From Spirochaetales bacterium (GTDB taxonomy: Bacteria; Spirochaetota; Spirochaetia; DSM-2461), in assembly GCA_016936295.1 (NCBI GenBank), contig JAFGYD010000192.1:1-38242 (forward strand): 38,242 bases of DNA, read 5' to 3'. Each line of letters starts with the position of its first letter. Within the stretch, counting starts at the first letter, position 1. Below the pieces are notes generated by a model. The model did no database searches. It saw only the letters and a program-made list of their open reading frames with translations, and was not told the origin of the DNA. Positions 18,870-24,109 of the stretch are shown here, in pieces. The position numbers were made by a program, and so were the translations under genes.

Positions 18870-20690
18870 GTGAATGAAATAAATAGAGATTCTTTAGTTA
18901 TATATAAAAATCAGCCAGCAATTGTTACCGAAGCAGGTAAAAAATTTGAAATAAAACTAAATAATGGTGAAATTAAAAAAGTAAGGGATAAAGATATATT
19001 ACTTATCCATCAGGGACCAGTAAAAAGTTTACAGTTTATAAAAAAAGATATAGATATCCAGGAGATTTGGACCTTATTACAGGGAGAAACAGTAACTCTA
19101 GTAGAATTTGCAGAATTTTTATATGGTGATAGTTCTCCATCATCCCTATATTTTGCATATGATGAATTAGAAAATGGAATCCATTTTAAAGGGACAGTAG
19201 ACTCTATACAGGCGAATAGCCAAGAAGAAGTAGAGGAGTATATCCAAAAAGAGAGAGATCAAAAAGACAAACAGGAAGCTTACAATCAGTCCATAGAAAG
19301 ATTAAAAAATGAGAAATGGAATCCTGATGATGATGACTATATAAGAGATATTGAATCTGTTGCTCTTGAACAAAAAACCAGTAGTAAAATTTTAAAAACC
19401 CTTGGTATAAAAGAAAATAGTCTGGATGCCCAGAAGTTTCTTAATAAAATTGGTTATTGGCCCGAATATTATAACCCTTATCCAGGTAGGTTGGGTATTA
19501 AGCTAACATCACCTCCACAGGAAGAACTTGATATTAATATAAAAAATAGACTGGATTTAACCCATTTAAAATCCTACGCTATAGATGATGAAGGGAGTAA
19601 TGACCCCGATGATGCAATTTCCATGGAAGGGGATTATAAAATTTGGATACATATTACCGATGTTTCCTCGGTTGTTGAAGCGGGATCTGTTAGTGATATA
19701 GAGGCTTCAAACAGAGGTTCAAATCTCTATCTTCCTACTCAAACAGTTCATATGCTACCTGAAAATGTAACCCGCTTACAGGCTTTAGGTGCTGAAAATG
19801 GAAATAATACCATTTCATATTTAATAGAATTTGATGAAAACTACAATATTGTAAATAGAGATATATTTTTAGCACGGGTAAATGTAACTAGACTCAGTTA
19901 CGAAGAAGTTGAAAACAGAAAGAATGAAGAGTCTTTTCAAAGTCTATACACCATTTCAAAACATTTAAAAGCAAGACGGGAAGAACTTGGTGCATTAACA
20001 ATATCTCTACCAGAGGTGAAAATTAGGGTAAACGAAGAGAATGAGATATCTATAAAGCCTATACATGGTGTTGAGAGTCGAAATGTCGTTTCGGAATTTA
20101 TGCTTTTAGCAGGAGAGACAGCAGCACTATTTTGTCACGAAAATAATATAGCTATTCCTTATGCAACACAGCAACCATCTGATTCTAAAGGCACTCCAGA
20201 AACAGATTTATCTTCAATGTATGTATGGAGAAGGAAATTTAAAAAAGGTGAGACTAAATTAAATCCCGAGCCACATGCAGGTCTTGGATTTAACTGCTAC
20301 ACAAGAGCAACAAGTCCACTTCGGAGATATTCAGATCTAATAGTAAACCATCAAATTAGAAATTTTCTTTTAGGAAAAACACTTCTTAACGAGGAGGAGG
20401 TTCTTTTAAAAGTCTCACCAGCCATAGACGCAGGGAAAAAAAGGGGGCAATGCGAAAGATTATCTAATCAACACTGGAAATTAGTTTACTTGTCACAAAA
20501 CAGAGGATTAGTTTTTAATGGTGTCTTTGTAGAAAAAAAGGATAAAGATAAGGGTGTTTTATTAATAGAAGAGTTGGCAATGGAAACAACAGTTACAATG
20601 AAAGAATTCCCTCCATTAAACGAAATAGTAAGGGTTAAAATAAAAAAAATAGATATCCCCGGTGGGGAAGTTCTATTTTCTGTCTGTTAA
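18870..20690 (+). CDS. RNase II/R-family 3'-5' exoribonuclease (RNB domain)
   Basis: A 606-residue processive exoribonuclease. The RNB catalytic aspartates are in DDEGSNDPDDAIS: Asp239, Asp245, Asp247 and Asp248, spaced exactly as Asp201/207/209/210 of E. coli RNase II. A second RNB signature, ATSPLRRYSDLIVNHQ, lies near residue 490, and the last 70 residues resemble an S1-like RNA-binding domain. The first 45 residues form a small beta-domain (NNGEIKKVRDKDILLIHQGP) rather than the usual cold-shock pair, followed by a winged-helix-like segment, as in cyanobacterial/chloroplast-type RNB enzymes. It begins with GTG one base after the response-regulator stop; no in-frame ATG is close. The 3' end overlaps the convergent gene by 18 bp. 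Confidence 0.88.
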   Translation: MNEINRDSLVIYKNQPAIVTEAGKKFEIKLNNGEIKKVRDKDILLIHQGPVKSLQFIKKDIDIQEIWTLLQGETVTLVEFAEFLYGDSSPSSLYFAYDELENGIHFKGTVDSIQANSQEEVEEYIQKERDQKDKQEAYNQSIERLKNEKWNPDDDDYIRDIESVALEQKTSSKILKTLGIKENSLDAQKFLNKIGYWPEYYNPYPGRLGIKLTSPPQEELDINIKNRLDLTHLKSYAIDDEGSNDPDDAISMEGDYKIWIHITDVSSVVEAGSVSDIEASNRGSNLYLPTQTVHMLPENVTRLQALGAENGNNTISYLIEFDENYNIVNRDIFLARVNVTRLSYEEVENRKNEESFQSLYTISKHLKARREELGALTISLPEVKIRVNEENEISIKPIHGVESRNVVSEFMLLAGETAALFCHENNIAIPYATQQPSDSKGTPETDLSSMYVWRRKFKKGETKLNPEPHAGLGFNCYTRATSPLRRYSDLIVNHQIRNFLLGKTLLNEEEVLLKVSPAIDAGKKRGQCERLSNQHWKLVYLSQNRGLVFNGVFVEKKDKDKGVLLIEELAMETTVTMKEFPPLNEIVRVKIKKIDIPGGEVLFSVC

Positions 20691-21162: not shown

Positions 21163-22710
21163 CTACCGTCTTAAGTAAGAAAGTTCTTTAGGTAATACAA
21201 TATTATTACCAAATTTATCCTCACCGTAGCCATTTTCAGCTAAAATTTTAATATCTTCTAAAACCCTTACATCCCCTTCAAAAAATACCATCTGATCCGA
21301 TTTTATGTCCAATGTACCTGTTGCTAAATGGTGTGTTATTGCCCTTTTTGCATAGGATGATATCTTTTCTCCATGAATAGGAGGTAAATCTTCAAAGGAG
21401 AATGATTTATTATAAAGGGTGATATCTTCATTCTCCATTAAATCCATATAAACATTTCTTAAAGCGGTTTTAAGTTGTAATGAATCAAGGGGTAAGGCAT
21501 TTTTTTTCTTAATAAAATCCATATTATTTACAACTTTATTTATCATAAATCTTTTTTGGGCATTAATAACTTCATTTGCTCTAAATAGTTCTAATGGTAT
21601 TGCTGCATTATATGTTTTATCATCCATAATCATTTTAATTTCAGTTCCATAATGGATAACAATTTTAGCAATTAAAGTAGATGGTCTAACATGAAATCCC
21701 CTGTAGTTTGGAATTCTAACCCTTATTTTGCCTCTTTTTTCATAGTTTAACAATGTTTCTTTGCATAGTCTTTGTGCTTTATCACTAAGTTCCAATGCGT
21801 ATCTTATAAATATATCAATAATGATTGTTACTATATCAATATCCGATGCAGGAGGTATAACACTATTAAAAAGTGTAGGTTTTAAGAAAGTTGCATGTCT
21901 TTCAATGTAGTGCGAACACTTAGTGCTTATATCTAATAAATGGTAAATAACAGATATATAGCATTTCAATCCAGGTAGAGTTTTATCTGAATTTAGTTTA
22001 ATCGATTCAGAGAGGTAAGTATCAAATAGAGATTGAAGACTATGAAATTTATTCTCGAATTGCATTAGTTTCGCTTCATCAAAAACATCTGGAATCATAC
22101 TTAAGTAATCAGATTTTTTTGTTTTAACAATTTTTTTTAGTTGGCTAAAATCTTCTGCAATATTCAGGAAACTTGTTGCCAAAGAAACTGCAGCCTGCTC
22201 CGCGGTTTTTATAGATCTTTTCTTTCTATTCCGCTCCAAATACCCTAAATCAGGGTAATCATTGTAAAATGAACACTCTATTGGACATACATTAAATACT
22301 ATATTTACTTTTTTAAACTGTGTTATTGCATTTAATCCACTATTATAGAGCGCTTTTTTTAATAGATTATATGCCTCGTTTATATCGTATTTAAACTCTG
22401 TTTCATCTGCTAATATCTTTTTTTTAGGAAGTTGTTCGATTAAACGGGTACATTTAAAACAGCAGCCGGAAAATGATTTTACAACAGCTACAGCTTCACG
22501 GACTGGAAACCACTGTTTATTGTGTAGACAACCGTAATAGTCAAGGAAATCCTCTAAATGACCAGCTTCAACTTTAAGTCTAGCTAGAAACAATTGGGAA
22601 AAATTCCCCTCATAACCTTTTTCCATTATATGACTTATTAATACAAAAAATACTCTAGAGTGCTTTTCTACCGCTTCAAGGTATTTCTTATAATCAACTT
22701 CCAAATCCAT
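21163..22710 (-). CDS. 515-residue protein with internal HPr-like domain, function unknown
   Basis: I do not recognise the full-length family. Residues about 328-395 look like an HPr phosphocarrier domain: RVRIPNYRGFHVRPSTLIAKI places His340 and Arg342 where HPr has its phospho-His15 and Arg17, followed by a strand-helix pattern. The equivalent of the regulatory Ser46 is not obvious (IPLELF). The N-terminal 320 residues are mostly helical and carry clustered cysteines (Cys61, GCCFKC at 82-87, CPIEC at 142-146), which could bind metal. The C-terminal 100 residues match nothing I know. No Shine-Dalgarno; TATATT ends 5 bases before the ATG. First gene of an operon with the NMN adenylyltransferase-like gene. 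A regulatory or phosphorelay role is inference. Confidence 0.7.
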   Translation of the reverse strand: MDLEVDYKKYLEAVEKHSRVFFVLISHIMEKGYEGNFSQLFLARLKVEAGHLEDFLDYYGCLHNKQWFPVREAVAVVKSFSGCCFKCTRLIEQLPKKKILADETEFKYDINEAYNLLKKALYNSGLNAITQFKKVNIVFNVCPIECSFYNDYPDLGYLERNRKKRSIKTAEQAAVSLATSFLNIAEDFSQLKKIVKTKKSDYLSMIPDVFDEAKLMQFENKFHSLQSLFDTYLSESIKLNSDKTLPGLKCYISVIYHLLDISTKCSHYIERHATFLKPTLFNSVIPPASDIDIVTIIIDIFIRYALELSDKAQRLCKETLLNYEKRGKIRVRIPNYRGFHVRPSTLIAKIVIHYGTEIKMIMDDKTYNAAIPLELFRANEVINAQKRFMINKVVNNMDFIKKKNALPLDSLQLKTALRNVYMDLMENEDITLYNKSFSFEDLPPIHGEKISSYAKRAITHHLATGTLDIKSDQMVFFEGDVRVLEDIKILAENGYGEDKFGNNIVLPKELSYLRR

Positions 22711-22804: not shown

Positions 22805-24109
22805 ATGAGTAAGATATGGGCTAAAGATTATGAACTGGATTCATTAATCGAAGAGTTTACAGTTGGAAACGATTACGAGTTGGATCTGGATCTAGTAGAA
22901 TTTGATTGTATTGCAAGTATGGCACACGCTAAAATGCTCTCAACAATAGGAATCCTTTCAGAAAGTGAATATGACAAACTGGAAACAGAGCTTCAAAAGA
23001 TTATAATAGATGTAAAAGATGGGAATTTTATAATAAATAGAAGCGATGAAGATGGACATACTGCAATTGAGAGTCGTTTAACCCAAAAACTTGGTGATAT
23101 TGGTAAAAAAATACATACCGGAAGAAGTAGGAACGATCAAGTAATAACAGCTACCAGACTATATTCCAAGTCACAAATAAAAAAGACTATTAGTAGTGGA
23201 TTAAAATTAGTTGATTCTTTAATAGAGATGGCTCAAAAGAATAAAGATGTTCCAATGGTTGGAAGAACTCATATGCAGAGTGCTATGCCTTCATCTGTAG
23301 GTTTATGGGCAGGCGCATTTGCCGAAGAGATTTTAGATGATGTTAAAAATCTTAAAAATATTTATCAGTTAATCGATCAAAATCCACTTGGTTCAGCAGC
23401 TAGTTATGGTGTGCCATTGCCATTAAATAGAGAATTAACAGGGGAAATTTTAGGTTTTAAAAAAGTTCAAAACAATGTTTTATATGTTAATAATTCCCGT
23501 GGTAAGTTTGAGTCCATAATACTGGATGCTATGGATCAGGTTACCTTAACTTTAAGTAAAATGGCTCAGGACTTAATTCTGTTTTCCCTCCCCGAGTTTG
23601 ATTATTTCTCACTGCCAAAAGAGCTTTGTAGTGGATCTAGTATAATGCCTCAAAAGAAAAATCCCGATGGATTCGAGCTAATTAGAAGTAAATCAGCAAT
23701 AGTAACTAGTTGTGCGTTTCAGATAAAAAGTATAATTCGATCACTTCCTACAGGATATAATAGGGATTTTCAAGATACAAAAGAGCCATTTATGCGTGGG
23801 TGTAAAACAACCCTTCTTTCAATACGAATTATGGAGTTATCTATACAGAAACTAGAAGTAAATGTAGATAAATGTATTAAAGGTTTTACTCCAGAAAATT
23901 TTGCAACAGATGTTGCTCTTGAAATGGTTGCAAAAGGAGCATCTTTTAGGGATGCTTATGTAGAAGTTGGATTAAATATAGATAAACTTGCAAATAGAGA
24001 TCCTGTCGAAGCTATTAAGCTTAGAACACATACTGGGACATCTGGTAATTTAGGTCTGGATTTAATTCAGCAAGGTGTAAATCTGCTTAGAAAAGAGCTT
24101 ATTTTATAG
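22805..24109 (+). CDS. argH: Argininosuccinate lyase
   Basis: A 434-residue member of the fumarase/aspartase superfamily that splits argininosuccinate to arginine and fumarate, the last step of arginine synthesis. The family signature GSSIMPQKKNPDGFEL (about 276-291) carries the catalytic Ser, and the GRSRNDQV and GRTHMQSAMP blocks contribute the other active-site residues (His near 158). The start follows AGAGG. No argG or other arginine gene is adjacent, so it stands alone between a divergent gene and a convergent one. The hairpin that follows it is shared with the minus-strand transporter gene. Confidence 0.95.
   Translation: MSKIWAKDYELDSLIEEFTVGNDYELDLDLVEFDCIASMAHAKMLSTIGILSESEYDKLETELQKIIIDVKDGNFIINRSDEDGHTAIESRLTQKLGDIGKKIHTGRSRNDQVITATRLYSKSQIKKTISSGLKLVDSLIEMAQKNKDVPMVGRTHMQSAMPSSVGLWAGAFAEEILDDVKNLKNIYQLIDQNPLGSAASYGVPLPLNRELTGEILGFKKVQNNVLYVNNSRGKFESIILDAMDQVTLTLSKMAQDLILFSLPEFDYFSLPKELCSGSSIMPQKKNPDGFELIRSKSAIVTSCAFQIKSIIRSLPTGYNRDFQDTKEPFMRGCKTTLLSIRIMELSIQKLEVNVDKCIKGFTPENFATDVALEMVAKGASFRDAYVEVGLNIDKLANRDPVEAIKLRTHTGTSGNLGLDLIQQGVNLLRKELIL

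Follow-up and report, generated by a model that had tools for sequence, protein, structure and literature searches.

Few bacterial phosphocarriers have been studied as well as HPr, whose known fusions are with other parts of the PTS. NPr and Crh, regulatory HPr paralogues with the same fold, each consist of some 85-90 aa and stand alone. Multidomain HPr proteins include FPr/FruB (EIIA-HPr), DhaM-type proteins (EIIA-HPr-EI) and MTPs (PMC2405797). In E. coli, HPr is reported to bind and regulate PfkB, PykF, NagB and Adk directly (PMC8167557, which cites Rodionova 2017).

Here we analysed a 38,242-nucleotide stretch of DNA from a Spirochaetales bacterium (hereafter the window). It encodes a 515-residue protein (Table 1) of an uncharacterised family, in which an insert interrupts HPr and a large helical domain is fused to it. 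An earlier note on this DNA had pointed out the HPr-like domain and proposed a PTS-like phosphate signal tied to NAD metabolism through a neighbouring NadR-type gene. This interpretation is partly supported. The observation is confirmed as real and well conserved, and the HPr part is right and larger than the note saw; the NAD part does not hold as a general feature, the NadR-type gene being a local neighbour.

Table 1. Positions in the window of the 515-residue protein, its parts and two neighbouring genes.
Feature	Position	Strand	Basis
515-aa protein (ATG start; ORF read from 22710 to 21163): helical N-terminus, split HPr domain, conserved tail	21163..22710	-	115 homologue rows; model with mean pLDDT 88.6
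All-helical N-terminal domain, residues 1-322, without convincing solved relative	21745..22710	-	Model; pLDDT 91.1, pTM 0.91
HPr, first part, residues 326-395	21526..21735	-	Model, profile alignment and conservation
Active-site-like motif GFHVRPST, residues 338-345	21676..21699	-	His340 = HPr His15; Arg342 = HPr Arg17
Insert between αB and β4 of HPr, residues 396-465	21316..21525	-	Model and conservation
HPr, second part, residues 466-493: β4 474-480, αC 481-492 (GDxRVLxDIxxLAE)	21232..21315	-	Model and Foldseek; sequence evidence alone weak
C-terminal tail GYGEDKFGNNIVLPKELSYLRR, residues 494-515	21166..21231	-	Conservation; extends past canonical HPr C-terminus
NadR-type NMN adenylyltransferase-like protein, 160 aa	20673..21155	-	TIGR01526, 66 bits, below curated cut-off
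Argininosuccinate lyase-like (argH-like) gene, divergent	22805..24109	+	Name read from its sequence alone

Sequence similarity to HPr

The profile search of the HPr region, which the note had proposed, gave a weak but specific match. Searched alone, the 515-aa protein hit TIGR01003 (E = 1.5e-5) and PF00381 (E = 0.0079), in both cases over residues 330-370 only and under the curated cut-offs (24.8 versus 47.9 bits and 16.7 versus 23 bits, respectively). Three other family members just reached the PF00381 cut-off. Among 30 aligned homologues, 28 matched TIGR01003 and 22 matched PF00381. Outside the HPr part, Pfam and NCBIfam searches with the protein and 30 homologues returned only scattered chance matches. 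Nothing useful came from a single-sequence scan of genome contigs, nor from phmmer and hmmsearch against PDB sequences.

When profiles were compared, the C-terminal part aligned with canonical spirochaete HPr at 92.7% probability (E = 4e-7) over 50 columns. Because this alignment is gap-free, residue n of the protein can be numbered as HPr n-325. His340, Arg342, Ile371, Leu373 and Phe376 are then the equivalents of His15, Arg17, Ser46, position 48 and position 51 of HPr. His340 and Arg342 are thus placed as in the HPr active site, in agreement with what had been read from the single sequence.

Predicted structure

An AF2 model built from 30 sequences (mean pLDDT 88.6, pTM 0.82) predicts HPr topology for the C-terminal region, with an insert ahead of β4. 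Strand β1 (326-332) is followed by αA (341-354), β2 (358-362), β3 (365-368) and an elongated αB (372-395); after αB come inserted helices with short strands, then β4, αC and the tail. The β-α-β-β-α-β-α order of HPr is found in the AF2 model and by Foldseek, as a predicted fold. Against the PDB, Foldseek retrieved the Thermoanaerobacter HPr entries 3le1 and 3lfg (probability 0.99; TM 0.72/0.77 of the target). These alignments run over 176-177 columns for targets of 87-89 residues, and therefore superpose both HPr halves across the insert. The whole-chain E-values were around 1, presumably owing to the small share of the query that the HPr part makes up. Region 325-400, for which the note had suggested such a structural comparison, is HPr-like in the predicted fold. 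The supposedly unknown C-terminus is, in the model, mostly the second HPr half (β4 and αC), separated from the first by some 75 inserted residues and followed by a near-invariant tail. Unlike PTS HPr, in which about 85-90 aa form one continuous domain, the protein has its HPr domain interrupted.

When the second half alone was aligned to the HPr profile, the probability was 0.2%; with the insert spliced out, the alignment grew to 81 columns and the score barely rose. A register scan gave two peaks, for a segment starting at 432 (score 52.3) and for the expected start at 468 (score 49.1), over a background of about 44. Since sequence alone does not decide the second half, the HPr split rests on the structure model.

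The N-terminal 323 residues, modelled alone from 60 sequences, gave a pLDDT of 91.1 and a pTM of 0.91. No Pfam or NCBIfam model matched this domain and Foldseek found no solved structure at E ≤ 0.001. Its top match was CHAD (E = 0.10, TM 0.27, rmsd 16 Å). A CHAD/polyphosphate identity was rejected as not significant and is kept as a lead only. Comparison of the model with a viral structure library gave no meaningful match.

Conservation within the family

None of the 115 homologue rows departs from His340, Val341, Arg342 or Pro343; these rows include near-duplicates and are reduced to about 70 at 85% identity. Conservation of His340 had been set as a test beforehand. The hydrophobic positions of the HPr face are also kept (Leu373 and Phe376). 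The Ser46-like site, already reported as not apparent, is Ile371 in this protein; serine occupies this position in 42 of the 115 rows and mostly Leu, Met or Ile in the others, whereas Ser46 is invariant in 23 canonical HPrs from the same group of genomes.

The three-part architecture is fixed, and conservation differs strongly between its segments. Columns conserved at ≥97% are rare in the insert (3%) and the N-terminal domain (5%), more frequent in the first (27%) and second (29%) HPr parts, and reach 55% in the tail (12 of 22 columns), so that the tail is the most and the insert the least conserved segment. The spacing from Arg387 to Gly465 has a median of 75 aa and ranges from 62 to 130 in the family. 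On αB, Asn379, Glu380, Asn383 and Lys386 are invariant and Arg377 and Arg387 near-invariant; together with Asp480, Arg482, Glu497, Asp498, Asn502 and Asn503 of the second HPr part and tail, they form a near-invariant polar set. Invariant residues of the N-terminal domain are Asp57, Trp67, Arg71, His223, Asp230, Thr231, Arg271 and His272. The N-terminus had been described as helical and Cys-clustered. The model agrees with the helices, but the cluster is not conserved (Cys83 in 3, Cys84 in 20 and Cys87 in 5 of 115 rows), and a metal site formed by it was rejected on this ground. The only common cysteine is Cys316 (105 of 115 rows).

Distribution and phylogeny

In the genome of origin and its relatives, 33 of 61 genomes had a match. 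A profile-seeded scan of GTDB species genomes confirmed at least 231 stretches, of which 80 were retrieved; the scan was pattern-based and the figure is a lower bound. Members occur in Spirochaetota, Planctomycetota (Phycisphaerae, Sedimentisphaerales), Lentisphaerota and Pseudomonadota, the last including Competibacteraceae, Accumulibacter, Dechloromonas and Hahella. A spirochaete-specific family is therefore rejected, as members are found in at least four phyla. Of 296 genomes sampled evenly from the phylum, 14 had a match at E ≤ 0.001; eight strong matches are members, and the other six, which are weak, are apparently cross-hits to ordinary HPr. Members were seen at full length or as fragments at contig ends, and a separate half was never recognised.

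In the tree, phyla cluster strongly but imperfectly, and proteobacterial members nest with planctomycete and lentisphaerote members, a branching pattern compatible with transfer. Loci L098 and L121, labelled as cyanobacterium and Phycisphaerales, share the gene neighbours of the Competibacteraceae clade in which they fall and are probably mis-binned contigs. The genome of origin carries a second paralogue (G000:C183; L038:4672-6165), 35% identical; both sister genomes (L036, L037) likewise have a paralogue. Its neighbours in the genome of origin are a histidine kinase-like gene and, downstream, one for a UshA/NadN-like 5'-nucleotidase.

Gene neighbourhood

The NadR-type gene starts 7 nt past the stop of the 515-aa ORF, and its 3' end overlaps by 18 nt that of a convergent ribonuclease-like gene (18870-20690). 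It had been named as the only operon partner, which is true of the genome of the window; in both sister genomes a gene for YjbQ (secondary thiamine-phosphate synthase family), absent from the window, lies between the two (L002:1073-1492, L060:7561-7980). A close NadR-type homologue beside the HPr-like gene is found only in the genus of the window (3 genomes, 67-69% identity to that of the window). Among 22 other genomes searched of the same taxonomic family, 21 have the HPr-like gene and none a close NadR-type homologue; the sole NadR-type match, in G003, is weak (E = 2e-5) and located elsewhere. The gene pair, whose conservation the note had wished to see checked, is therefore confined to one genus and interrupted by yjbQ in two of its three genomes. 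These data do not support a general link between the PTS and NAD metabolism, and an NAD operon as a family feature is rejected.

Other NAD genes occur near relatives. A NAD(+) diphosphatase (NudC) gene is divergent from the HPr-like gene at L061, L065, L066, L067, L070 and L076, a weak hint of an NAD connection. Elsewhere in the taxonomic family, a paralogue has a Crp/Fnr-like gene upstream and pncB convergent. As nudC is divergent and pncB convergent, neither forms an operon with the HPr-like gene and both are leads only.

Immediate neighbours of the family genes are otherwise highly variable. No conserved operon partner was found among the neighbourhoods read, and therefore the context names no target. 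No PTS gene was recognised among the immediate neighbours read, and PADLOC gave no match that would point to anti-phage defence. As a synteny marker, an argininosuccinate lyase-like gene recurs next to the family gene or close by in several further genomes of the taxonomic family. Phosphofructokinase (PFK) stands beside the gene in two unrelated arrangements, as divergent 6-phosphofructokinase in spirochaetes and as convergent diphosphate-type PFK in Competibacteraceae. PFK genes of either type are adjacent or one gene off at L072, L073 and L075, and at L095, L098, L105, L112, L120, L121, L129 and L138. RpiB (ribose-5-phosphate isomerase B) is encoded upstream in two Phycisphaerae, and NagB is convergent in one planctomycete. 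By our own rough estimate, less than one event would be expected per such category at flanking positions. The NAD and PFK adjacencies are suggestive, but the categories were picked after seeing the data and the genes are mostly not co-directional.

PTS setting

The N-terminal domain of enzyme I (EI) was found in all 66 genomes tested, 46 of which are carriers of the family, and canonical HPr in all 45 tested, including 38 carriers. Because EI is present in non-carriers as well, its co-occurrence is uninformative and was dropped as a discriminator. The genome of origin has a canonical HPr (89-aa frame) elsewhere and one EI match. HprK was found in 21 of 25 carriers; the four without it are two planctomycetes, G031 and G002, the last an incomplete genome. 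Given its absence from two planctomycete carriers, it is not required. Since every carrier tested has EI and canonical HPr, and Ser46 is not kept in the family, the 515-aa protein is an addition to the PTS phosphoryl chain and not a replacement. For the same reasons it is probably neither a sugar phosphocarrier nor an HprK substrate. Its link to the PTS is plausible.

Proposed function

As the best reading, to which we give an even chance, the protein is a PTS-coupled regulator with putative phosphorylation at His340 and a helical domain that modulates a target. We infer that His340 of the discontinuous HPr domain would accept a phosphoryl group from EI or HPr~P, and that the phosphorylation state would report the PEP/pyruvate and sugar-flux state of the cell. 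The charge on His340 would alter contacts among the HPr module, the inserted segment, the conserved tail and the 322-residue helical domain. The helical domain would be the output of this switch, binding and modulating a target that most likely belongs to central carbon or energy metabolism. A family member would then probably be a sensor of cellular sugar and energy state. Support comes from the invariance of His340-Val341-Arg342-Pro343, the HPr-like model, the kept hydrophobic face, the presence of EI and HPr, and the PFK, NagB and RpiB neighbours. The direct control of E. coli glycolytic enzymes by HPr, as reported in PMC8167557, also counts in its favour. Against it stand the occurrence of EI in non-carriers, the lack of a conserved operon partner, and the near-invariant polar set on αB and the tail, which seems to exceed the needs of a phosphocarrier and could be a ligand-binding or catalytic site.

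This polar set invites a different explanation, in which the HPr fold was co-opted for a ligand-binding protein or enzyme, and His340 and the invariant polar residues of αB and the tail form a phosphorylated-metabolite pocket or catalytic site that receives no phosphate from EI. Near-invariance of so many polar residues beyond His and Arg, including over half of the tail columns, is typical of a pocket; the Ser46 site not being kept and the lack of a recognised PTS gene among the immediate neighbours read also favour it. However, a co-opted fold would need neither the exact His-x-Arg-Pro nor the HPr hydrophobic positions, both of which are kept, and we regard this explanation as rather unlikely. 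The HPr active-site residues would equally suit a phosphate sink or alternative carrier, which would compete with HPr for EI phosphate or pass it to an unusual EIIA-type acceptor, and the genome of origin has a canonical HPr and one EI match. The size of 515 aa and the conserved 322-residue helical domain would be superfluous for such a role, and canonical HPr is always present, making this very improbable. Little probability is likewise left for the idea of the earlier note, in which NMN adenylyltransferase or NAD turnover would be tuned through a phosphorylated His340. The closely spaced NadR-type gene, nudC in several genomes of the taxonomic family, the nicotinate phosphoribosyltransferase gene pncB beside a paralogue and the UshA/NadN-like gene downstream of the second paralogue of the genus speak for it. 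However, only one genus shows the NadR pairing, with yjbQ interrupting in both sister genomes, and nudC and pncB are on the opposite strand. The UshA-like match stays under the cut-offs for UshA and for NadN, the planctomycete and proteobacterial neighbourhoods read contained no recognisable NAD gene, and the gene categories were chosen post hoc.

Taken at its widest, the PTS-coupled regulator would be a signalling protein of several phyla, with a split HPr relaying an on/off signal, in the form of PEP-derived phosphate, to a new helical output domain. This PTS route would be distinct from those through EIIA, HprK and HPr itself and might act on glycolysis or NAD turnover; so wide a claim is tentative and, as a whole, somewhat doubtful. 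A strict HPr active site in an interrupted, helix-fused domain, kept in at least four phyla, points to an unexplored PTS output, and this idea is directly testable by a standard EI/PEP assay. Carriers such as Spirochaetota, Phycisphaerae, Competibacter and Accumulibacter are relevant to wastewater treatment and anaerobic carbon turnover.

Comparison with known systems

Searches of the open-access literature found no description of an architecture that combines a split HPr with a helical domain, which, given that scope, is weak evidence of novelty. Like CHAD, a polyphosphate-binding helical domain, the N-terminus is all-helical, and the CHAD entries 6qva, 6qv7 and 6qv5 recur among its weak matches, but the similarity is insignificant at the values given above. 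With HPr (PF00381/TIGR01003; ptsH) the protein shares the predicted fold, the His15-Arg17-Pro18 active site, the hydrophobic position 48 and the αC end. Unlike HPr, it has a domain split by about 75 residues between αB and β4, an elongated αB and an extra invariant tail; it is fused to a 322-residue helical domain, has no conserved Ser46 and scores under the curated cut-offs. HPr is one domain within a larger protein, as in FPr/FruB, DhaM-type proteins and MTPs. However, the partners in those proteins are EIIA and EI, whereas the partner domain here matches no PTS domain or Pfam family. In the proposed role, the protein would resemble NPr and Crh, with an HPr fold serving regulation alongside the transport PTS.
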